Assembly: GCA_031253625.1 (NCBI GenBank)
Contig: JAIRVZ010000021.1
Location: 1 to 33,085 of the forward strand
DNA: 33,085 nucleotides
Source of the DNA: Dysgonamonadaceae bacterium
GTDB lineage: Bacteria; Bacteroidota; Bacteroidia; Bacteroidales; Azobacteroidaceae
Direction of reading: 5' to 3'
Shown: one piece after another, positions 5,869 through 30,952 of the stretch
How the letters are laid out: each line of letters opens with the position of its first letter
Numbering within the stretch: the first letter of the stretch is position 1
Notes under the pieces: generated by a model
Told to the model about the DNA's origin: nothing
The model's database searches: none
Seen by the model: only the letters and a program-made list of their open reading frames with translations
Made by a program: the position numbers and the translations under genes

Positions 5869-8800
5869 TTATTCTGCGAAAACTCTTGATTTTCCGGAAG
5901 TAGCATACATTTTATCGAAATCTTCCTTACTTCCAACAACCAATTTGTCGTAATCTCTCAAACCGGTACCGGCAGGAATCAAGTGACCACAAATCACATT
6001 TTCTTTCATACCTTCCAGTTTGTCAACTTTACCGTTGATAGCAGCTTCATTCAATACTTTAGTCGTTTCTTGGAACGATGCAGCCGACATAAAGCTACCT
6101 GTTTGAAGAGCAGCACGAGTAATACCTTGCAAAATCTGACGTGCAGTTGCCGGAATAGCATCACGGGTTTCAACCAATTTCAAGTCGCGACGTTTCAAAG
6201 CACTATTTTCGTCACGAAGTTTGCGTGCAGTAACGATTTGTCCGGGTTTCAAGTTTGGAGAATCTCCGCTTTCAAGAACAACTTTCTTGCCCCAAATTCT
6301 ATCGTTTTCTTCCATCACTTCGTTTTTGTCAATCAATTGTTGTTCAAGGAAACGAGTATCTCCCGGTTCAACAACTTCAACTTTACGCATCATTTGGCGA
6401 ACAATCACCTCGAAATGTTTGTCGTTGATCTTCACCCCTTGCAGGCGGTACACATCCTGAACTTCATTCACGATATATTCCTGTACTGCTGTAGGTCCGT
6501 TGATTGCCAAAATATCTCCCGGAGTAATGGCTCCGTCTGAAAGCGGCATACCGGCACGCACATAGTCGTTTTCCTGTACAAGTATTTGTTTTGAAAGAGA
6601 AACCAAGTATGTTTTGAATTCACCGGTTTTAGAAGTAACAATAACTTCTCTATTACCACGTTTCACTTTTCCGAACGAAATTTCACCATCAATTTCAGAA
6701 ACGACAGCCGGATTCGAAGGATTACGGGCTTCAAATAACTCGGTAACACGCGGAAGACCTCCGGTGATATCGCCTGTTTTACCAACTGCGCGAGGTATTT
6801 TCACCAGTACTTCTCCTGATTTTATCGCATCTCCTTGTTCTTTAATAATATGAGCACCCAAAGGCAAACTATATGATCTCAGAATTTCTCCGCTTTCATC
6901 AACAATTTGAGCAGTCGGAAGTTTAGTTTTATCGCGGCTTTCAACGATAATCTTTTCTCTCAATCCGGTTTGATCGTCGTACTCAACTTTGAAAGTCGTA
7001 CCTTCGATCAAATTCTCAAAAGCAATTTTTCCTGAAAATTCCGAAACAATAACCGCATTGAACGGATCCCATTCAATAATCATATCACCTTTTTTCACTT
7101 TACTTCCCGACTTGAAATACAATTTAGAAGCATAAGGAATATTATGAGAGAGCAACACAATATTGGTATTCGGATCTACAATTCGCATTTCAGACAAACG
7201 GCTGACTACAATCTGAGTTTTCTTGCCTGTTTCGTCAACTATATCTACTGTTCTTAATTCGTCGATTTCAAGAATACCGTCGAATTTAGAAACTACGCTA
7301 CTTTCCGTTGCAATATTGGAAGCGATACCCCCAACGTGGAATGTACGCAATGTAAGCTGAGTTCCCGGCTCTCCGATCGACTGAGCAGCGATAACTCCCA
7401 CAGCTTCACCTTTTTGAACCATTTTATTGGTAGCCAAGTTACGTCCGTAACATTTGGCACAAACACCTTTTTTAGATTCACAAGTAAGTACCGAACGGAT
7501 TTCCACCCTTTCGATAGGAGAATTTTGAATGGCTCTCGCTTTTTCTTCCGTGATTTCTTCTCCCGACTCAACGATAATTTCACCGGTAATCGGATGTTGT
7601 ACATCATGAACCGCTACACGTCCTAAAATACGTTCGTATAAAGACGCAACAACTTCTTCGTTGTTTTTCAATTCGGTAGCAACCAATCCGCGTAATGTAC
7701 CGCAGTCTTCTTCGTTGATAATCACGTCGTGAGAAACGTCAACCAAACGACGAGTCAAATATCCTGCGTCGGCAGTTTTCAAAGCGGTATCGGCCAAACC
7801 TTTACGAGCACCGTGCGTGGAGATAAAGTACTCTAACACTGATAATCCTTCTTTGAAGTTTGAAAGAATCGGGTTTTCGATGATTTGTCCACCTTCTGCC
7901 CCACTCTTTTGCGGTTTTGCCATCAAACCACGCATACCGGATAACTGACGAATTTGTTCTTTAGAACCACGAGCTCCTGAATCAAGCATCATATATACAG
8001 AGTTGAAACCTTGGTCGTCTTCCGACAATTGTTTCATCAAAATGCTCGACAAACGGGAATTAATATGTGTCCATGTATCGATAATCTGGTTATAACGCTC
8101 GTTGTAAGTAATGAAACCCATGTTATAGTTAGCCATGATTTGTTCCACTTCGTCATAACCCTCTTGTACTAATTTTTCTTTTTCTTCAGGAATAATAATG
8201 TCTTCCAAGTTGAAAGATAATCCACCTTTGAAAGCCATTTTATATCCCAAATCTTTCATATCATCGAGGAATTGCGCCGTTTTTGCCACTCCGCAAACTT
8301 TAATCACATTACCGATAATATCGCGTAAAGATTTCTTTGAAAGAACCTCATTGACGTAACCAACTTCTTGCGGAACAATTTCGTTAACAATTACACGACC
8401 GACAGAGGTTTCGCGCAGCACATCAACGATCTTTCCATTTTCGTCCAAGTCTTTCACAATCACTTTAACCGGTGCGTGAATATCTACTCGTCCTTCATTG
8501 TAAGCAATAACTGCTTCTTCGGCTCCGTAGAATGTCAAACCTTCGCCTAAAGCTCCTTTGCGCAATTTGGTGATATAGTACAATCCCAAAACCATGTCTT
8601 GAGAAGGTACGGTAATAGGCGCACCGTTAGCAGGGTTCAAGATATTGTGAGAACCAAGCATTAACATTTGAGCCTCAAGAATTGCTTCATTTCCTAACGG
8701 AAGGTGAACAGCCATTTGGTCACCATCGAAGTCGGCGTTGAATGCCGTACAGGATAACGGGTGCAATTGGATTGCTTTTCCTTCAATCAATTTAGGTTGG

Positions 8801-10143
8801 AATGCCTGAATACCTAAACGGTGCAATGTCGGGGCACGGTTCAATAGAACAGGATGTCCTTTCATTACATATTCCAAAATATCCCATACTTCGGGAGATT
8901 TACGGTCTACAATTTTCTTGGCAGATTTAACTGTCTTAACAATACCTCTGTCAATCAATTTGCGAATGATAAAAGGTTTGTATAATTCAGCCGCCATATT
9001 TTTAGGGATACCGCATTCGTGCATCTTCAACTCAGGACCAACGACGATTACGGAACGTGCTGAATAGTCGACACGTTTACCCAACAAATTTTGACGGAAA
9101 CGTCCTTGTTTACCTTTCAAGCTGTCGGAAAGTGATTTCAACGGACGGTTGGCATCTGTTTTAACGGCACTTGATTTGCGTGAGTTGTCGAACAAAGAAT
9201 CCACAGATTCCTGCAACATACGTTTTTCGTTGCGGAGAATCACATCGGGAGCTTTGATGTCGATCAATCTTTTCAAGCGGTTGTTACGAATAATTACGCG
9301 ACGATACAAGTCGTTCAAGTCGGAAGTAGCAAAACGACCACCATCCAACGGAACCAACGGACGCAATTCGGGCGGAATTACCGGAACAACTTTTACTACC
9401 ATCCACTCAGGACGATTTTTCCCTTTCGACATACGGAAAGATTCAACAACCTGTAATCTCTTCAACGCCTCATTTTTGCGTTGTTGAGAGGCATCATTAC
9501 TGGCTTTGTGACGCAATTCGTAAGAAAGTTCGTCCAAATCCAAACGGGCAAGCAAGTCGTAAACCGCTTCTGCTCCCATTTTCGCAATGAATTTATTCGG
9601 ATCCGTATCGTCCAATAATTGGTTTTCTTTGGGTAAAGAATCCAAAATATCCAAATATTCATCTTCCGAAAGTAAGTCATATACAGCCCTATCGTTCACG
9701 ATACCGGGTTGAATGACAACATATCTTTCGTAATAAATAACTGAATCTAACTTTTTAGTCGGTAAGCCCAACAAATAACCGATCTTATTCGGCAAAGAGC
9801 GGAAATACCAAATATGTACAACGGGAACAACCAAATGAATGTGTCCCATTCTTTCACGACGTACTTTCTTTTCAGTAACTTCAACACCACAACGGTCGCA
9901 AACGATTCCTTTGTAACGGATTCTTTTGTATTTACCGCAATGACACTCATAGTCTTTTACCGGACCAAAGATACGTTCACAAAACAAACCGTCGCGTTCG
10001 GGTTTGTATGTACGGTAATTGATAGTTTCCGGTTTCAAAACCTCTCCACTTGAATTAGCCAAAACCTCATCCGGAGATGCCAAACCAATGGAAATTTTTG
10101 AAAAACTGTTTTTTGCTTTTATATTATCTTTTCTGAAAGCCAT
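5869..10143 (-). CDS. rpoC: DNA-directed RNA polymerase beta' subunit
   Basis: RpoC forms half of the polymerase active centre. The 1,424-residue protein has the N-terminal zinc-binding site C67, C69, C82 and C85. The catalytic NADFDGDQM motif is at 469-477, with Mg-binding D471, D473 and D475. The second zinc site is C814, C888, C895 and C898. The bridge-helix/trigger-loop region is recognisable ([18 protein letters not shown], about 927-944). It is the last gene of the tRNA-tuf-rpl-rpoBC cluster and ends at a strong terminator. Confidence 0.98.
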
Positions 10144-21351: not shown

Positions 21352-21424
<73 letters not shown>

Positions 21425-21440
21425 CTTTTAAAAGTTTATA

Positions 21441-22079: not shown

Positions 22080-25000
22080 ATGTTAATCATCATGGAAAAC
22101 AAAAAAACAAAGGGTAAGTCGATAGAAGGATTAGCTGATTTATTTCCTATGAAATCATCTTCGTACTTAGAGGTTAAAGATGATAGAAACTTTAAGAAGG
22201 AATCTACAAAAAAGAAACTTATAAAGAAAAATATTGTTTCTGAGCAAAAAATTCCGAAAATCACAATTAAAGATGAAGAATCTTTCAATCTTTATTTTGT
22301 AAAACCACTTAGGGATTCTTTAAAGGAAGACTCTTCTGACAAGAAATTTGAAGAGCGTTACAACAAACTTCTCGACAATATTCGTTGTATCAGTAACAAT
22401 TCCATCCCGAAATACAGCGTTGAGAATTTCCAAGAAACCGATCATTATGAAAAATTTTGCGAAGAAATATTGGAAAGACCTGTTTTTTGCATATTTCTAC
22501 TGTTATTTCTACTAAAAAAAGAATATGTAAGAAGTTATTTTAATGAGATTTACAAAAAAGAATATGAAAAAATAAAAGGAGAAAAGGAAAGTACAATCAA
22601 TAAAACTACAGAAGAGATAACGGAAAAAATTATCCAAAAATATGTCGATTTTTTAAATCATCAGTTAGATAGTGCGAATGAAATGTTTGATGGCGTATTT
22701 GAATTGGCAAAAAATGTAGTTAATCACGCGAAACGAATTGATGACGAGGGGGAAAAAACTGCGGAAGGAGGCATTGTTATTGAAGTTATAACTAAAAACG
22801 CTTTAGCCAATGATAGAAAAAATAGCAATTTATGGAATGGTTATCTTGACTCCCTTGAGAATAAAAATATAGTTTATTGGAATAATTGGAACAAAAAGGA
22901 TAAAGAGAAAAATCCGCCAACTTACTTAAAAATATCAATAGGTGATGATGGAAATAAGGGCATTATCGAAACTACTTTAGATTATATGTCCGATAAAAGC
23001 AATTTTAGGGGATTGCCAAGAGAAACGAAAAGAGAGGACAGAAAAGGAATAAAAAAGCGGTTAGATGAGTGTAAAAGTAATGATGACGAGGCTCAACTTC
23101 TTTTTGATATGTATTTCAATGGTGGAAATTCCATTTTGAACAGACAGGCAAATCAAGCTCTGAAAGGCCTTGGAATTTATACTTTTATAAAATATTTAAT
23201 CGAAAATAATGGTTTTCTCAATGCACAAACAATAAAAAACAATAGTAGAAGCGAAATAATAGATTTTTCTCTTTATGGTAATCTTGCAAAAAGGCACTCG
23301 CCATTAGTCGATAGTCGGCTTTTTGGCGGCTCTGAATACCATATAATTCTTCCATTGCAAAAACCAAAGATAGAACAAGAGTATAGTTTAGAGATAGAAA
23401 CCAAAGGAGCACCAGCAAAAGGAATGTATGAAAAAATGTTTCCTTTGGAAAATAGAGAGTTGAAGCAACAAGAATTTAATCTTGGACCAGAGTTGGAAAA
23501 ATTTAATTTCCCCAAATATGTGATTAAACAAAAAGGAGCCAAAAAAGATGATATTTTTGTTTTTTCGTTGAAAAATAATCGAGATGCCGACGGAAACTTA
23601 TTGAATATTGACAGAACTATGCTGTTTAGGACTGTCTTCCGATTATTCTATGGAGTCCCCGAAGAAGAAAACAAACCTAAACCGGAAATCGAAACAATTA
23701 TCATAAGAGATGTTCCTAATGCTTTGGTTAAAGGATTATTTAACTTGTATAAGGTATTAGATAATGATGCCTCTCACTTCTTTTATCCAGAAAAGCTATT
23801 GCTACTTATATCCGAAGACGAAGACAATAGGGAATGTGCTGTAATAACCGGAAATAGCAAAGAAGAATGTGTAAAAATAAATCGATATATTGCCTATCGA
23901 AATGGATATTTTGATATATTTACTTGGGCACAGCGCTGTCATGAAGAATTAACAGAAAAAGATAATAACGAAATAAAAAAACAGTTAGCAACCTACACTT
24001 TGTTTGTTGATGACCAACTCATCGAATCTGATATTTTAAATATTGACAAAAATGGCATTTCTCTTTTCGAACAAAGGGTAAAGATAATTTTAGAGACATC
24101 AATAGACAGCCCAAAAGACGATTCAGTCGGTTACAAGTGGGAAAATACCCATCTTAAAATTGGCTCTAAACTTCATTTAGATGATTTTATATATGGCAAA
24201 AAATTGTTTCAACGCAGCAGAGACGCTTCGGGTTTTGCATACCTTTTATCACAAAAAATTCTCGAAACAATAAAAAGCGACATCGAAGAGCTGAAAGAAA
24301 ACAAAAAAGGGGAAAAATTATGTTATACACTCGTTGGATATGGCAATTATTCGGAACTATTAGTAAGTCGAACTTGTGGGTTTGTAGAATTTCTCTTGAA
24401 AAACTATGGTAATGACTTTGAAAAAGAAAGAATCAAATGCGAATATGTTATTGTTAAAGACGAAGAAGAGATAAAATTTTCTCGTTATTTTAAGAATTTC
24501 AAAGAGAGAAAAGATAAACAAACTCTTGAACGGTTAATTATCATCGTACCCATTTCTTCCACATTAACCACCAGCCTTAAAATAGAAAATACTTTCTATG
24601 ATGAGTTACTAAATCAAATCAAAAAGGACATTAAAAAGGATAAAAAGGAGGAGATTGAAAACAATTTAAAAATTGCTAATCCATCTGACAACAAAGAACA
24701 ATTAAGAAAAAAGCGGGACGAGGAAATTAAAAATCGAGCAAAAGATGAGTTGAAACGAAGAAGAGAAGAAAAAGAAATTGATGTTTTAAATCCTTTCCAT
24801 ACCATTGTTGTCGTTGGCGATGAGGTAAGAGATGCGGAAGAGAAAAGGCAAACAGACGAACAAACATCAAAAGAAATAGAAATATATTTTAAGAAGAAAA
24901 AGGAAAAATATGATGTAGAAAAAAAGCAATGGATAAATATTGATGCCGATGAAAAGAAATATATTGAAAAATTTAGCGCTGTAGATAAATGTTGGACAGA

Positions 25001-28000
25001 TTTTAAAGATAAAGAAAGAATAATATTCACTGAAAATCGCGTGGCAAAGGCTAAACTCGAAGAAGCAAAACGCAAAAATCAATTTAATATATATATTCAA
25101 TCTAAATGGCAGTTGCCCGAAAAGTGTGAACATTGTTTTCCAGACAATCCCATACGAGAACGTCCATTGTTTGTTACCGATAAAGTTTCGGTAACACCCA
25201 CTCTTATTTTTGACGAACCTGAATGCTATCAACCCTATGGAAATTGTAGAAAGCCGTATTTCAAGTTTGAAAAAGATTCGACCGAAAAACTGCCTATTAT
25301 TGACGCTGACACAATAGATTGGGTGCATTACGAAGGAGATGGTAGTAAGCACTTCAATTATTACCTGCATTATCTTGATTTTATAAACAAGAATAAAGGC
25401 AAAGACAATGATAAAGATAGTTTAAAAGGATGGGCAAACAGTATTAGAGCTGATATTTTTGAGCAAGAAAAAGCTTTCGGGCGGGAAGAAATTTTATTGA
25501 TAACACCCGACAAAAGCGAAAACGGAGCATTTACGCATTTAATCAATAGAGAAATATTTAACGACAAAGCAAGTGTTATTCGTTTCGACCAACATAGCGA
25601 CCATTATTTGAATTTTGATAAATTTTTCAACGATGAGGTCAAGAAAGCCGACAAAATATATTTCGTGGATAATTCGATGTTTAGCGGCAAAACATTCTTG
25701 TCGCTTGACAATATGTTAAAACTTCTACCAAAAGGAAAATCTATTAATGGCATATTTTGCTTAAACAATCGAATGGATTATGATTGCGACAAAACTATAA
25801 CAAAATGCTTGAATGAAAACAACGACGAAAAAGATAACAACAAACAACACCTATTTTCTTTTGTCAATTTATGCGTCCCTGAGAGCGTAACAACCCCTTG
25901 TCCCTTATGCGAAGAAAAAGAGAAATTAATAGAAACCATAGAAAAAGACGGCTCAATAGAAAAAAAGGGCTTGATAGTGGATGCATCATTAGACTGTATA
26001 AAACAATATTTTTTCGAGAAAGAATTGCCTTATTACAAAGTAGTCGAGAAAGAAAAATTAATAGAAGGAGAATTGCCATATAAGCCATTAGAAAAAAAAC
26101 ACGACAGTACATTATTAAAAGTAACTCTTATCCATTTTCTGAACAAAGCATTTGCAGATTTTGCAAATAAGAAAAGTTTTATTGACTCATTAAAAACGAA
26201 AGCTCTGTCTGATTGGACAAATCCGAAAGATTTTGACTTCAACAGTTTCGTTGAAAATTTCCGTGATTATATTAGAGGACATCAACAATGTAATATAGAA
26301 GATGGTATAATTAACGATTTCAAATTCAAAGCAAACTTGATAAAAGTGTTGTCGTCTCATTCTTTCAAAAAATATCGTGGAGTATATATTGCGGTGTTTT
26401 ATTGGGTGCTTAACGACTTAATTATTGCGACAAAAACTATTTTAGGGGACAAGTACAATTATAAAGGGAATTATGACAATGTTACAACACAGACGAATTT
26501 TGATGCTTTAAATAAATCGAATGACAATAAAAAAGACACAGATGGCTACATTGATACAGCCAATTATTTGCGAGTATTAATAAAGCACGCAGGTTTATTG
26601 AATATCACATATTTACTTCATCAAGATTTCATCGCTGCGATAAATCAGTTGATTTTATCTTTCGACATAGAAAAACTTGAATCAAAGATTAAATCTTTTG
26701 AAGATGAAGATTTATCCCGTAAGTTTAAGGAAATGCGCTATTCGTTTGAAAATTTCAGACTTTTTTGTGCAGCACATATCATTCGTTCTCTGTATAAAAA
26801 TGAACAAAGAGCCATTAGATTTGAGGAAAATATAAACGCTGTTCTGAAAGAAAATGAAGGAAAAGATACATCATTCTTTGATTTATTAATTTTGGAAAAC
26901 ACAAGTATTATCAGACAAATATTAAGAAATCACTATGAAACGGAAGATTTAAGGAACAATAATTTGGACGATTTTCATCGTTTCATGGAAGCGGCAATGG
27001 AAAAGTATGATGAAAATACCGCTTTCAACAAACTAAATCAGATACACAAAATTCAACAAAAAATTAAAGAATATGAAAAAAGTCCGGAAACAAAATCAAA
27101 CTATGGCAAAGACGATAAGGATATAAAATACATAATGCAAAACATCGCGGGAATAGTTAATTGCAGTGAAACAAACGGAAGAGGAATACTTTTGTACAAG
27201 TATCAAAGTTCAAAGAATAAAACAGAGGATAGTAATAACGAAGTTGAAAATTATGCCGTCGTAGGTGAATATGGGAACGAAAAAACTTTATCGTCTTATT
27301 TTGAAACTCAACTGCCTAACAGTTTTGCTACGAAATTTTTAGAGGGAATAAATTATTTAACCGAAACACTTTATTCAACAGAATTTAAAACTGAAAAAAC
27401 AATAGAATACAAATGGACAAGTTGCGCTATATATAAAAATAACGATGGCGAATGGACAGGACAAGATGGAAAACAAACAATAAACATTGAAAGTAAAAAG
27501 TGTAAATATTCCGAATTCGCAGATATTGAGTCTCTTAACGAAAACGCAAACCGAATACTATTTATTCGAGTTTCGAGCTATCATACAAACAAAACAAGGA
27601 AAGATGATGAAGAGGAAGAAATATTGAAAGGTGAAGCCGTTTTTGTTTTCTACGACAACGAAGAGGAAAATAAAGGTAAAAGACCCGATTCCGTTCATAA
27701 TACAAGGTTTGTCCATATCCTTCGAAATGAAATAAGCGAATATTTGAAAAAGAAATATCGGAATGATGCTTTTAGGGCGTGGGTGGAAGCAGACAAGAAA
27801 AATAAGGAATATAAAAAACGGCATAGAAAAAACATGCACGGAGTTAAAGCACATTTGGATAATGTAGCGGGAGAATTAATCAAAAATAAATTAGACGGAG
27901 ACCTTGAGATTTTTGCAATATGTGCAGATTTATATGTCGGAGATATTCATTATTCATTGGTAGCAGAAAATACATATAGTTTTGGAGCGTATTCATATAG

Positions 28001-28460
28001 AATAGAAAATAAATTACCAATAAAGTTTGCAAAAAATATTATAAAATATTTAACCGAGGAAAAGTTTAAAAGAGAAAATATAATAATAGATTTATTGTCT
28101 TTCAAAGGAAAAAACATATATTATACTAATGAAACGCCTTTTCTTTTATTTCAGCTTGTTAAAAATATCGTTGCTCACACACCATCATCAAACCGAGAAA
28201 AGGCGACAATACACATATCCGCGAAAGAAGAATATATAGTAATGAAAAACTCAAATATCACATTTACAAAGGAGGATGCCGTCAGAATAAACAATGCTAA
28301 CGATAGCAAAGAAATTCCCTATGACCATATATCGTTGTATGCCATAAATCATTATTGTCAAAAAATGAACGATGCCGAGGATAGAAAAAAAACAGAGTTG
28401 ATTGTTGACACGGAAAAAAACAATACTTTTGTTGTGAAAATTCCAATGATAAAATTATAA
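22080..28460 (+). CDS. Giant GHKL-ATPase / PRTase-like / histidine-kinase-like fusion protein
   Basis: The product is 2,126 residues of cytoplasmic type with no signal peptide. An N-terminal GHKL ATPase (about 195-430) has the N-box E208-N212-H216, a G1-like GDDGNKG (288-294), GLG at 363-365 and a final SEYHIILPL strand. The first phosphoribosyltransferase-like region (about 690-840) has VGYGNYSELLVSR near 752-764 and IIIVPISSTLTTS to 832. A charged coiled-coil-like stretch follows (about 845-1000). A second, ComF-like region has C1016/C1019, VHYEGDG (1082 on), KIYFVDNSMFSGKT to 1205 as a PRPP-loop-like motif, and C1274/C1277. A helical region (about 1290-1650) and a GAF-like region (about 1680-1895) follow. 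An H-box MHGVKAHL has candidate phospho-acceptor H1920. The C-terminal GHKL fold has Q2025-N2029-H2033 but degenerate glycine boxes. A second ATG at residue 5 could be the true start. Function is unknown; the partner receiver gene suggests phosphosignalling. Confidence 0.8.
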   Translation: MLIIMENKKTKGKSIEGLADLFPMKSSSYLEVKDDRNFKKESTKKKLIKKNIVSEQKIPKITIKDEESFNLYFVKPLRDSLKEDSSDKKFEERYNKLLDNIRCISNNSIPKYSVENFQETDHYEKFCEEILERPVFCIFLLLFLLKKEYVRSYFNEIYKKEYEKIKGEKESTINKTTEEITEKIIQKYVDFLNHQLDSANEMFDGVFELAKNVVNHAKRIDDEGEKTAEGGIVIEVITKNALANDRKNSNLWNGYLDSLENKNIVYWNNWNKKDKEKNPPTYLKISIGDDGNKGIIETTLDYMSDKSNFRGLPRETKREDRKGIKKRLDECKSNDDEAQLLFDMYFNGGNSILNRQANQALKGLGIYTFIKYLIENNGFLNAQTIKNNSRSEIIDFSLYGNLAKRHSPLVDSRLFGGSEYHIILPLQKPKIEQEYSLEIETKGAPAKGMYEKMFPLENRELKQQEFNLGPELEKFNFPKYVIKQKGAKKDDIFVFSLKNNRDADGNLLNIDRTMLFRTVFRLFYGVPEEENKPKPEIETIIIRDVPNALVKGLFNLYKVLDNDASHFFYPEKLLLLISEDEDNRECAVITGNSKEECVKINRYIAYRNGYFDIFTWAQRCHEELTEKDNNEIKKQLATYTLFVDDQLIESDILNIDKNGISLFEQRVKIILETSIDSPKDDSVGYKWENTHLKIGSKLHLDDFIYGKKLFQRSRDASGFAYLLSQKILETIKSDIEELKENKKGEKLCYTLVGYGNYSELLVSRTCGFVEFLLKNYGNDFEKERIKCEYVIVKDEEEIKFSRYFKNFKERKDKQTLERLIIIVPISSTLTTSLKIENTFYDELLNQIKKDIKKDKKEEIENNLKIANPSDNKEQLRKKRDEEIKNRAKDELKRRREEKEIDVLNPFHTIVVVGDEVRDAEEKRQTDEQTSKEIEIYFKKKKEKYDVEKKQWINIDADEKKYIEKFSAVDKCWTDFKDKERIIFTENRVAKAKLEEAKRKNQFNIYIQSKWQLPEKCEHCFPDNPIRERPLFVTDKVSVTPTLIFDEPECYQPYGNCRKPYFKFEKDSTEKLPIIDADTIDWVHYEGDGSKHFNYYLHYLDFINKNKGKDNDKDSLKGWANSIRADIFEQEKAFGREEILLITPDKSENGAFTHLINREIFNDKASVIRFDQHSDHYLNFDKFFNDEVKKADKIYFVDNSMFSGKTFLSLDNMLKLLPKGKSINGIFCLNNRMDYDCDKTITKCLNENNDEKDNNKQHLFSFVNLCVPESVTTPCPLCEEKEKLIETIEKDGSIEKKGLIVDASLDCIKQYFFEKELPYYKVVEKEKLIEGELPYKPLEKKHDSTLLKVTLIHFLNKAFADFANKKSFIDSLKTKALSDWTNPKDFDFNSFVENFRDYIRGHQQCNIEDGIINDFKFKANLIKVLSSHSFKKYRGVYIAVFYWVLNDLIIATKTILGDKYNYKGNYDNVTTQTNFDALNKSNDNKKDTDGYIDTANYLRVLIKHAGLLNITYLLHQDFIAAINQLILSFDIEKLESKIKSFEDEDLSRKFKEMRYSFENFRLFCAAHIIRSLYKNEQRAIRFEENINAVLKENEGKDTSFFDLLILENTSIIRQILRNHYETEDLRNNNLDDFHRFMEAAMEKYDENTAFNKLNQIHKIQQKIKEYEKSPETKSNYGKDDKDIKYIMQNIAGIVNCSETNGRGILLYKYQSSKNKTEDSNNEVENYAVVGEYGNEKTLSSYFETQLPNSFATKFLEGINYLTETLYSTEFKTEKTIEYKWTSCAIYKNNDGEWTGQDGKQTINIESKKCKYSEFADIESLNENANRILFIRVSSYHTNKTRKDDEEEEILKGEAVFVFYDNEEENKGKRPDSVHNTRFVHILRNEISEYLKKKYRNDAFRAWVEADKKNKEYKKRHRKNMHGVKAHLDNVAGELIKNKLDGDLEIFAICADLYVGDIHYSLVAENTYSFGAYSYRIENKLPIKFAKNIIKYLTEEKFKRENIIIDLLSFKGKNIYYTNETPFLLFQLVKNIVAHTPSSNREKATIHISAKEEYIVMKNSNITFTKEDAVRINNANDSKEIPYDHISLYAINHYCQKMNDAEDRKKTELIVDTEKNNTFVVKIPMIKL

Positions 28461-28539
28461 ATGAAATTTCTATGATTTTTTTATAAAAATACACAAATCG
28501 AAATAATTATAATTCAATGACTTATAAAATTATATACAC

Positions 28540-29346
28540 ATGAATAAATTGTTAATAATTGAAAATAACGAGACGCATTTTGATGAGATAAAAAAAGTGT
28601 TCGAAGACTGGAATGTTCTTCCTGTAAATCATAAAGATATTTCTTCCTATAGTAATAAAGATGCCGTTGTTTCATATATAAACAATAGCATAAAGGAATC
28701 AAATATTAGTGCTATAATAATGGATATTTCATTGCAGGCTTCGGATAATGATGATGAAACTGGCTTAGAAATAATTGAATTAATTAGAGCTGTTGATGAT
28801 GATAAAAATAAAACTATCCCCATCTATTGTTATTCTCAACATGGAAAAAGCGATAGTATGAGAAGTAAAGCATTCAAAATGGGTGCAACTAATATTTTTT
28901 CCAAAGCAAGTATGAATGTCTCCGATGAAGTCATATTTTTAAAGCAATCATTAACTGCATTAGCTATTATTTATACTTCTGTTCGTGATAAAGGAGGATT
29001 GTCTATAGAAGATATAAACAAACAATTCATTACCATAATAGAGAAATTAAACTCTATCAAAGGACAAAATAATGTATTACAACAATCCATTATCAAATTG
29101 TTATCTTTAGATGATATTACTTCAATAACCGAACTGAGTGACGAAAATTATAATCAGATAGTTGAAGCAATTGGTGGAGAAAGTAGTTGGCAGGCACTAA
29201 AAGAGGAGAAATTTTTTAAAGAAAATAGAGAAGGTAACATCGCTTTAGTTGATGATGTTGCTAATATTTTGTCAGATATAGTAGCACTAGCACCTATTGC
29301 TGCGATTTTAAAAGTATTCACTATGCTTGCCAAAAGAATAAAATAA
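28540..29346 (+). CDS. Receiver-domain protein with helical C-terminus, partner of the giant protein
   Basis: The 268-residue protein begins with a response-regulator receiver domain (1-145). LLIIENNE gives E8/N9 where most receivers have two acids. Phospho-acceptor D62 lies in IIMDIS, S99 in YCYSQH and conserved K122 in FSKAS. The rest (about 155-268) is helical, has no recognisable DNA-binding domain, and ends in a hydrophobic segment (about 237-265, IVALAPIAAILKVFTML) followed by basic residues. It lies 79 bases after the giant gene, whose H1920 could be its phosphate donor (inference). thyX starts 7 bases later. The output is unknown; a membrane- or partner-binding helix is possible. Confidence 0.75.
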   Translation: MNKLLIIENNETHFDEIKKVFEDWNVLPVNHKDISSYSNKDAVVSYINNSIKESNISAIIMDISLQASDNDDETGLEIIELIRAVDDDKNKTIPIYCYSQHGKSDSMRSKAFKMGATNIFSKASMNVSDEVIFLKQSLTALAIIYTSVRDKGGLSIEDINKQFITIIEKLNSIKGQNNVLQQSIIKLLSLDDITSITELSDENYNQIVEAIGGESSWQALKEEKFFKENREGNIALVDDVANILSDIVALAPIAAILKVFTMLAKRIK

Positions 29347-29353
29347 ATATGAA

Positions 29354-29983
29354 ATGAAAATAATTCAACCAACATTCATCATCGAATCACCAATCAACGG
29401 GAACGAAATATTAAAACACATAGAAAAAGCCGGAAGAACAGCCTACAAAAGCGAAGACAAAATAACCGAAGATTCATCATCCAAATTTATTGAAATGATA
29501 ATGAATCGTGAACATTTATCAGTTATCGAACATTCATTTATTACCGTTAGAGTTATTTGCGATAGAGGTGTTTCGCACGAAATCGTCCGGCATCGTTTAG
29601 CAAGTTATACGCAAGAATCTACAAGGTATTGTAATTATACCAAAGGTAAATTCGGAAACGAAATTACAGTAATAAAACCCTGTTTTTGGAACGAAAATAG
29701 TGAAGAATATAAGGTTTGGTCGGAAACAATAAACTATATTGAAAATTCTTATAACAAATTAATTTCTTTGGGAGCAAGTCCGCAGAAAGCGAGAAGTATT
29801 TTACCTAATTCCTTAAAAACCGAAATTGTGATAACCATGAACTTGCGCGAGTGGTATCATTTCTTCAAATTAAGAACGGCTAAAACTGCACATCCACAAA
29901 TGAGAGAAATAGCAATACCTTTGTTAATGGAATTTCAAAAAAAAATTCCCGTTATTTTTGATAAAATTATCATAAATGATTAA
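29354..29983 (+). CDS. thyX: Flavin-dependent thymidylate synthase ThyX
   Basis: ThyX makes dTMP from dUMP with FAD, NADPH and methylene-tetrahydrofolate. The 209-residue product has the family signature RHRLASYTQESTR at 79-91. Other family segments are EHSFITVRVICDRGVSHEIV (59-78), ARSILPNSLKTEIVITMNLR (about 145-164) and HPQMREIA near the end. It is short for the family but complete. Only 7 bases separate it from the receiver gene, so it is likely cotranscribed with it, which is an unusual context for a nucleotide enzyme. Confidence 0.93.
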   Translation: MKIIQPTFIIESPINGNEILKHIEKAGRTAYKSEDKITEDSSSKFIEMIMNREHLSVIEHSFITVRVICDRGVSHEIVRHRLASYTQESTRYCNYTKGKFGNEITVIKPCFWNENSEEYKVWSETINYIENSYNKLISLGASPQKARSILPNSLKTEIVITMNLREWYHFFKLRTAKTAHPQMREIAIPLLMEFQKKIPVIFDKIIIND

Positions 29984-30085: not shown

Positions 30086-30952
30086 ATGGACAAGCAACGT
30101 ATTATCCAACACCAAACCAATTTTGATAAAATCGCCCATTTTATCAACAACGAAGACAACAGTGAGCAAATCGAAGTATGGTTTGCTCGAGAACTACAAA
30201 CCTTATTGGGCTATGCCCGCTGGGAGAATTTTCTTGTTGCCATCCATCGGGCAATAGATTCGTGTAAAACGCAGAGTATCAATGTGGATGATCATTTTCG
30301 TGACTTCACGAAAATGATCGAAATAGGGAAAGGAGGTAAACGTGAAGTTAGCGATTTTATGCTTACTCGCTATGCCTGTTACCTGATAGCACAAAACGGA
30401 GATCCGAAAAAAGAAGAAATCGCTTTTGCTCAAAGTTATTTTGCCATTCAAACACGCAAAACCGAGTTGATTGAAGAACGCATCAAACTGTTATCCCGTT
30501 TAGAAACGAGAGAGAAATTGCGAGCGGCAGAAAAACAACTCTCACAAAATATTTACGAGCGAGGTGTTGACGATAAAGGTTTCAGCCGTATTCGTTCAAA
30601 AGGTGACACAGCATTGTTTGGCGGACATACCACCGAAGACATGAAAAAGCGTTTGGGAGTCAAAACAAGTCGTCCACTGGCAGATTTCTTGCCTACTCTG
30701 ACCATTGCCGCCAAAAATTTAGCTACAGAAATGACGAACTATAATGTAGACGAAAAGGACTTGTTCGGTGAACAACCTATTACGATTGAACACATACAAA
30801 ACAATATAACAGTTCGTGAGATGTTGGGAAAACGAGGAATCAAACCCGAAGAACTTCCTCCTGCCGAAGATATAAAGAAACTGGAACGTCGTGTAGCAAG
30901 TGATGAAAAATCCATCGAAAAGACAACTCGAAAATTACCTAAATCAGAGTAA
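30086..30952 (+). CDS. dinD: DNA damage-inducible protein D homologue
   Basis: The 288-residue product matches the DinD family along its length. An N-terminal Bro-N-like region has ELQTLLGYARWENF (36-49), TRYACYLIAQNGDPKKEEIA (94-113) and FAQSYFAIQTRK. The C-terminal signature GIKPEELPPAEDIKKLERR is at 251-269. E. coli DinD is LexA-controlled and reported to act on RecA; no LexA-like site is recognisable here. A 30-base perfect palindrome lies inside the gene. Its stop nearly touches that of the convergent WYL regulator. DinD genes are frequent in accessory and defence-rich regions. Confidence 0.9.
   Translation: MDKQRIIQHQTNFDKIAHFINNEDNSEQIEVWFARELQTLLGYARWENFLVAIHRAIDSCKTQSINVDDHFRDFTKMIEIGKGGKREVSDFMLTRYACYLIAQNGDPKKEEIAFAQSYFAIQTRKTELIEERIKLLSRLETREKLRAAEKQLSQNIYERGVDDKGFSRIRSKGDTALFGGHTTEDMKKRLGVKTSRPLADFLPTLTIAAKNLATEMTNYNVDEKDLFGEQPITIEHIQNNITVREMLGKRGIKPEELPPAEDIKKLERRVASDEKSIEKTTRKLPKSE
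30290..30319. repeat. Perfect 14-bp inverted repeat inside dinD
   Basis: GATCATTTTCGTGA (30290-30303) and TCACGAAAATGATC (30306-30319) are exact reverse complements with only 2 bases between. They cover codons 69-78 of dinD (DHFRDFTKMI). A palindrome this long is not expected by chance in coding DNA. Confidence 0.9.

Follow-up and report, generated by a model that had tools for sequence, protein, structure and literature searches.

A giant kinase with PRTase-like domains and its receiver partner: a candidate immune relay in Bacteroidales and Lachnospiraceae

What does a bacterium do with a protein of 2126 residues that joins ATPase, PRTase-like, and kinase-like parts and is followed directly by a receiver? 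The pair lies in a stretch of 33,085 nucleotides from a Dysgonamonadaceae bacterium (hereafter the window), contig 42 of a 3.14-Mb assembly, and the chromosome segment around it is of the Bacteroidales type, with genes for tuf, rplJ, trigger factor, bL21, and bL27. A first-pass annotation had read the locus as one long fusion with a receiver gene 79 bases downstream, and both the open reading frame coordinates and the existence of homologs elsewhere confirm that layout.

22080 to 28460, + strand: giant sensor kinase open reading frame, 2126 amino acids, 2126 codons open; a homologous family exists
28540 to 29346, + strand: receiver protein open reading frame, 268 amino acids, starting 79 bases after the giant

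The giant frame is not a chance one, since homologs of about 1900 to 2300 amino acids occur in other genomes, with roughly 17 to 28% identity along the protein. Direct searches gave no significant Pfam, NCBIfam, or PADLOC match for either protein, and PADLOC matched neither one at E values up to 1. We propose that the pair forms a cytosolic two-component immune relay, in which the giant kinase signals to the receiver and the receiver to an exchangeable effector, and we consider this reading reasonably probable.

The family was entered through two relatives within the same bacterial family, and profile and pattern searches extended it to 24 members with the window counted. These come from Bacteroidales and Lachnospiraceae/Clostridia, and one locus with split genes (L082) was added from a further genome of the class. 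It is rare and patchy in these groups. With the query genome counted, it was found in 3 of 61 relatives, in 6 of 393 order-level genomes, in 8 of 397 genomes from the family of G814, and in 2 of 331 from the class of G853; a draw of 395 genomes from the phylum returned the window alone, besides two ordinary kinases. Searches of plasmid, phage, and viral-contig collections found no relatives. One member, L036, is titled Gastranaerophilales yet nests among the Lachnospiraceae members in the tree, and its taxonomy is doubtful for that reason.

The sensing core of the proposed relay would be an N-terminal, Hsp90-like GHKL region together with two PRTase-like domains and their CxxC pairs. Structure was modeled for two halves of the window giant with 22 homologs aligned (mean pLDDT, 61 and 70).

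22632 to 23369, + strand: N-terminal GHKL (Hsp90-like) ATPase region, residues ~185 to 430, from motifs and a weak Foldseek match to the Hsp90 NTD
24057 to 24794, + strand: PRTase-like domain 1 (orotate PRTase/PurR-like), residues ~660 to 905, from VIA-align and motif
25125 to 25136, + strand: first CxxC, C1016-C1019, invariant across the 24 members
25284 to 26051, + strand: PRTase-like domain 2, residues ~1069 to 1324, from Foldseek (HPRT) and alignment with HP1257
25659 to 25694, + strand: PRPP-loop motif YFVDNSMFSGKT of domain 2, residues 1194 to 1205, from the family alignment
25899 to 25910, + strand: second CxxC, C1274-C1277

The N-terminal region had been called an intact GHKL ATPase. 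Its motif residues are in place in the window (N-box N212; G1 D289-G291-G294; G365; G417), N212 is invariant in the first three homologs, and nearly all others that have the region carry an EN or KN box. Bacteroidales members have the N-box, DxGxxGI, and the later G-rich motif. Lachnospiraceae members have lost the G1 glycines, and the whole part is missing from L025 and L041. The sole fold support is a weak Foldseek match to the Hsp90 NTD (probability 0.72; E = 0.056), and one family member gave a weak HATPase_c match for the region (E = 0.068). The GHKL identity is plausible, resting on motifs that are present and on fold support that is weak.

The two PRTase-like regions of the same annotation are supported by predicted structures and profile comparisons, and the requirement that they adopt a type I PRTase fold was met by Foldseek and VIA-align on the models. 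Residues 660 to 905 aligned in VIA-align with PfOPRT (4fym; Z = 10.2) and B. subtilis PurR (7rmw; Z = 9.7), and the motif of this domain, VPISSTLTT, lacks the acidic pair of the catalytic PRPP loop. A SLOG reading of domain 1 (STALD; E = 0.003; three members) was set aside, since orotate PRTases and PurR were what the fold search returned for it. Domain 2 matched HPRT in Foldseek (probability 1.00) and HP1257 (Z = 11.9). Its PRPP loop reads VDNSMFSGKT in the window versus the canonical VDDTIISGHT in Lachnospiraceae members, and D1197 of the motif is nearly invariant across the family. Profile-profile comparison of the two regions with each other and with three PRTases of the genome was weak (best, 4.7%); the best match of domain 2, weak in score, was aligned in a way that fits the PRPP loop. 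Four of the seven reference frames in this comparison had been misread and are excluded. The CxxC pairs held only in part, the first being kept throughout and the second being lost from the Symbiothrix-type clade and L041. The signal that the core reads is inferred; it would probably be a nucleotide or PRPP-like ligand, or else some different indication of infection.

The remainder of the giant is helical, then beta rich, and ends in a kinase module.

26094 to 27146, + strand: alpha-helical region, residues ~1339 to 1689, from the secondary structure of the model
27147 to 27719, + strand: beta-rich, possibly GAF-like region, residues ~1690 to 1880, from the model
27765 to 27962, + strand: DHp-like helical hairpin, residues 1896 to 1961, with H1920 at 27837 to 27839, from the conserved H and the VIA alignment
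28014 to 28457, + strand: CA (HATPase) domain, residues ~1979 to 2126, from hhalign, a PDB profile match, and fold alignment

The annotation's GAF-like call for the beta-rich region is tentative, as this region taken with the kinase gave only loose phytochrome alignments (rmsd 17). The H-box and second, degenerate GHKL fold predicted for the C terminus proved well founded. In structure alignment, the DHp-CA module (residues ~1896 to 2126; placed at ~1916 to 2126 by the fold searches) matched DivL (Z = 13.5) and HK853 (Z = 13.3). VIA-align with HK853 (2c2a) put model residue 916 at HK853 position 254, which brings H1920 close to H260, and H1920 lies within a long predicted helix. Of the 24 kinase-bearing members, a set that includes L082, 23 keep this putative phosphoacceptor, and L038 has M in its place. 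The CA domain matched a true Bacteroidota histidine kinase in hhalign (probability, 93.7%; E = 1.9e-7), a PDB sequence profile search with 22 homologs had ThkA as its top match (E = 0.013), and one family member gave an HATPase_c match for the domain (E = 3.9e-5). The same PDB search with only three homologs returned chance matches only. In further support of the CA domain, the whole-protein profile retrieves ordinary kinases from other genomes. In the window, the CA domain keeps N2029 of the N-box, and the G-boxes are degenerate, with none clear. A two-component kinase is expected to have a DHp histidine and a CA domain, and the giant has both, degenerate G-boxes aside. Typical sensor kinases are membrane bound. 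The giant has only a single borderline hydrophobic stretch and is thus probably cytosolic.

The partner protein supplies the other half of a two-component pair, a cognate receiver with a phospho-Asp.

28540 to 28944, + strand: receiver domain with E8, D62 (28723 to 28725), and K122, from the family alignment
29242 to 29343, + strand: C-terminal hydrophobic tail of the receiver, a candidate output element, from hydropathy and similar tails in L038 and L040

Related receivers match Response_reg (L038, E = 1.2e-5; L037, E = 1.2e-3). Wherever a kinase-bearing locus has downstream sequence to assess, a receiver-like frame comes directly after the giant, which answers the annotation's question of co-occurrence. 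The frame usually overlaps the giant (by 4 bases at several loci) or sits a few bases off. The phospho-Asp is kept at all of these loci except L036. Phosphotransfer from H1920 to the receiver is inferred, not shown. In some members it may be inefficient or absent because the CA domain of the window has no clear G-boxes, the G1 glycines of the N-terminal GHKL are lost in Lachnospiraceae, and L025 and L041 lack that GHKL part.

The output of the pair differs from locus to locus. The window, L038, and L040 have receivers with a common C-terminal tail, hydrophobic in the window (hydropathy, 1.96 over 19 residues) and L040 and less so in L038, and no further effector gene was seen there. The receiver of L037 is fused to an SduA_C nuclease domain (E = 1.6e-13), a Shedu SduA domain that was found in L037 alone and in neither of the window's two proteins. 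The receiver of L041 is fused to four predicted TM helices, and L024, L025, L026, L028, and L031 have a separate TM protein. Lachnospiraceae loci carry a DUF2971 protein. The assignment passes the Pfam cutoff in L035 and L056; elsewhere it rests on a weaker score, as in L059 and L061, or on similar motifs. Finally, in L060 (1129 to 8031), a C-terminal calcineurin-like metallophosphoesterase (PF00149; E = 3.9e-11) replaces the kinase module, and no receiver lies downstream of the giant. A tree of the PRTase core places the window, L037, and L038 in one clade (98/98), with L037 and L038 as sisters at moderate support (87/88). As this single clade holds the Shedu fusion of L037 and the tail of L038, the output was exchanged and the sensor was retained. 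With the pair wired to interchangeable effectors at about 25 related loci, the module has the look of a two-component immune system that has yet to be described.

Some loci have features outside this pattern. A long C-terminal extension with GNNSPIIIGDGN in it sets the receiver of L033 (13703 to 14608) apart from the other outputs. Upstream of the L025 giant, the one without the GHKL part, a large frame (5950 to 9153) with a metallophosphoesterase-like start matches a PADLOC effector model and PDC-S60. A small XRE-type HTH frame abuts the giant or lies within a few bases upstream of it in L026, L028, L031, and L033; it is a possible regulator of the giant and was not seen in the window.

Around the window module, a tRNA-Phe gene (21352 to 21425) sits just to the left and has an almost identical duplicate on contig 14. 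As an integration site it was rejected, since no repeat of its 3' end was found within the window and no clean insertion site could be defined. Several relatives have a serS-like gene after bL21/bL27, and none of those examined has the giant there, so that the region differs between them and the window. A ThyX gene (29354 to 29983) begins 8 bp after the receiver. It is treated as a mere neighbor, given that it was not found beside the other family members examined and that a separate ThyA is present elsewhere in the genome. A DinD homolog (30086 to 30952) is the PADLOC phage defense candidate PDC-S13.

The first-pass annotation had argued for defense from base composition, the tRNA, and dinD. 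The module is A+T rich as described (GC of 0.28 to 0.34, against mostly 0.35 to 0.44 to its left), but A+T richness is not specific to defense and is weak as an argument; the tRNA argument is weak too, as its 3' end is not repeated in the window. The case for defense is carried instead by the exchange of effectors (Shedu, metallophosphoesterase, membrane proteins, and DUF2971). The annotation also asked whether the loci lie in defense islands. The split locus L082 (3473 to 16467), with a GHKL gene, a PRTase-kinase gene, a receiver, and a DUF2971-like gene, has a divergent BREX brxA-brxB-brxC starting 350 bp away. Other members are flanked by RhuM, Fic-type, AlbA-type, and KAP genes, transposases, and conjugation genes, and PADLOC calls among neighbors include KAP as PDC-S20 and an endonuclease effector. 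No matched random-locus control stands behind this neighborhood. Structure predictions without GHKL or PRTase folds, or homologs without the receiver and confined to housekeeping contexts, would have refuted the original proposal; the PRTase folds are supported, the receiver co-occurs, and loci lie among mobile and defense genes, one of them beside BREX, so neither refutation arose.

How might the parts work together? The module is most likely antiphage, a role inferred from these computed patterns. Once the core had bound its ligand, the DHp-CA module would autophosphorylate at H1920, and the phosphate would pass to D62 of the receiver. The receiver would then switch an effector able to halt either the phage or the cell it has infected, and both the direction of switching and the action of the effector are inferred. 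In the window, the only candidate for an effector is the receiver's own hydrophobic C-terminal tail; in relatives, the part may be played by the Shedu nuclease, membrane proteins, or the DUF2971 protein. Tentatively, we would go further and suggest an undescribed class of immune relay in which catalytically altered PRTase domains sense infection through nucleotide state and act through a giant cytosolic kinase and receiver on exchangeable killing effectors. The relay is supported by the receiver pairing, the kept H1920 and Asp, the kinase fold, effector exchange, defense neighbors, and patchy spread. Against it stand the lack of any experiment, the M in place of H1920 in L038, the receiver of L036 without its Asp, the absence of relatives from plasmid, phage, and viral-contig collections, and a window without a separate effector gene.

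The same parts could instead make a nonimmune stress regulator, one that tunes membrane or nucleic acid processes to the nucleotide or PRPP status it senses, with its sparse spread as niche adaptation. The PRTase folds do resemble ligand-binding PurR and salvage PRTases, a receiver partner is present, and some loci lie beside ordinary genes. Shedu and metallophosphoesterase outputs, adjacency to BREX, patchiness, and effector exchange are, however, typical of conflict systems, and we think such a regulator unlikely. Alternatively, the PRTase pair might make a nucleotide-like second messenger by the logic of the Ter system, with the kinase-like C terminus a noncatalytic adaptor and the receiver an allosteric sensor. 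That the Lachnospiraceae loop is canonical, that one member has a weak PRTase_2 (Ter-type) match (E = 0.052), and that the CA G-boxes are degenerate would suit synthesis, but conservation of H1920 and of the receiver Asp is strong, the kinase module and the receiver are jointly absent from L060, and PRTase domain 1 has no acidic pair, which leaves messenger synthesis quite improbable. That the window copy is a decaying relic is very hard to credit, as an A+T-rich locus without a separate effector gene nonetheless keeps a 6.4-kb frame free of stops, intact key residues, and a receiver tail in common with L038 and L040.

This family, for which no curated model exists, combines PRTase folds, a putative Hsp90-like ATPase, and a kinase in a single protein, and among related members it connects the same sensor to different effectors. 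To our knowledge, few immune systems that work by phosphorelay have been described. The family makes it possible to test by what means a cytosolic kinase detects infection and whether immune sensing can be done by PRTase folds, and the Shedu and metallophosphoesterase versions offer outputs that can be assayed.

The annotation knew of no characterized system with this layout, and within the papers searched we likewise found no description of it. PRTase domains occur in conflict signaling in the Ter system (PMC7824862), a setting to which the weak PRTase_2 match also points, but those of the giant are fused to GHKL and histidine kinase parts, and no Ter genes were noticed, short of a dedicated search for them. 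HATPase and REC labels appear among the predicted, unvalidated defense systems of DefensePredictor (PMC13092281), as far as the legend to its Fig. 6F tells, and those entries may or may not be the same family. Shedu resembles the family through the SduA_C domain of L037, but here that output sits behind a receiver, in that one locus and not in the window. Bacteroidota hybrid and LytS-type histidine kinases have a homologous CA domain, as hhalign and the profile matches indicate, and the giant differs from them in its ~2100 amino acids, its PRTase domains, and its probable cytosolic location. Detocs pairs a kinase with receivers. It is a three-gene defensive two-component family (Rousset et al. 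2023; PMC11249213; also PMC10952713), and the lack of a PADLOC match sets the giant apart from it only provisionally, as the library dates from 2023 and the presence of Detocs models in it was unchecked. No PNP-type ATP-cleaving effector was found among the TM, DUF2971, Shedu, and metallophosphoesterase outputs. By analogy, the family may work like Detocs, without membership having been shown: the two share the logic of two-component defense with a swappable effector, and the giant departs from Detocs in its core of twin PRTase-like domains and an N-terminal GHKL region.
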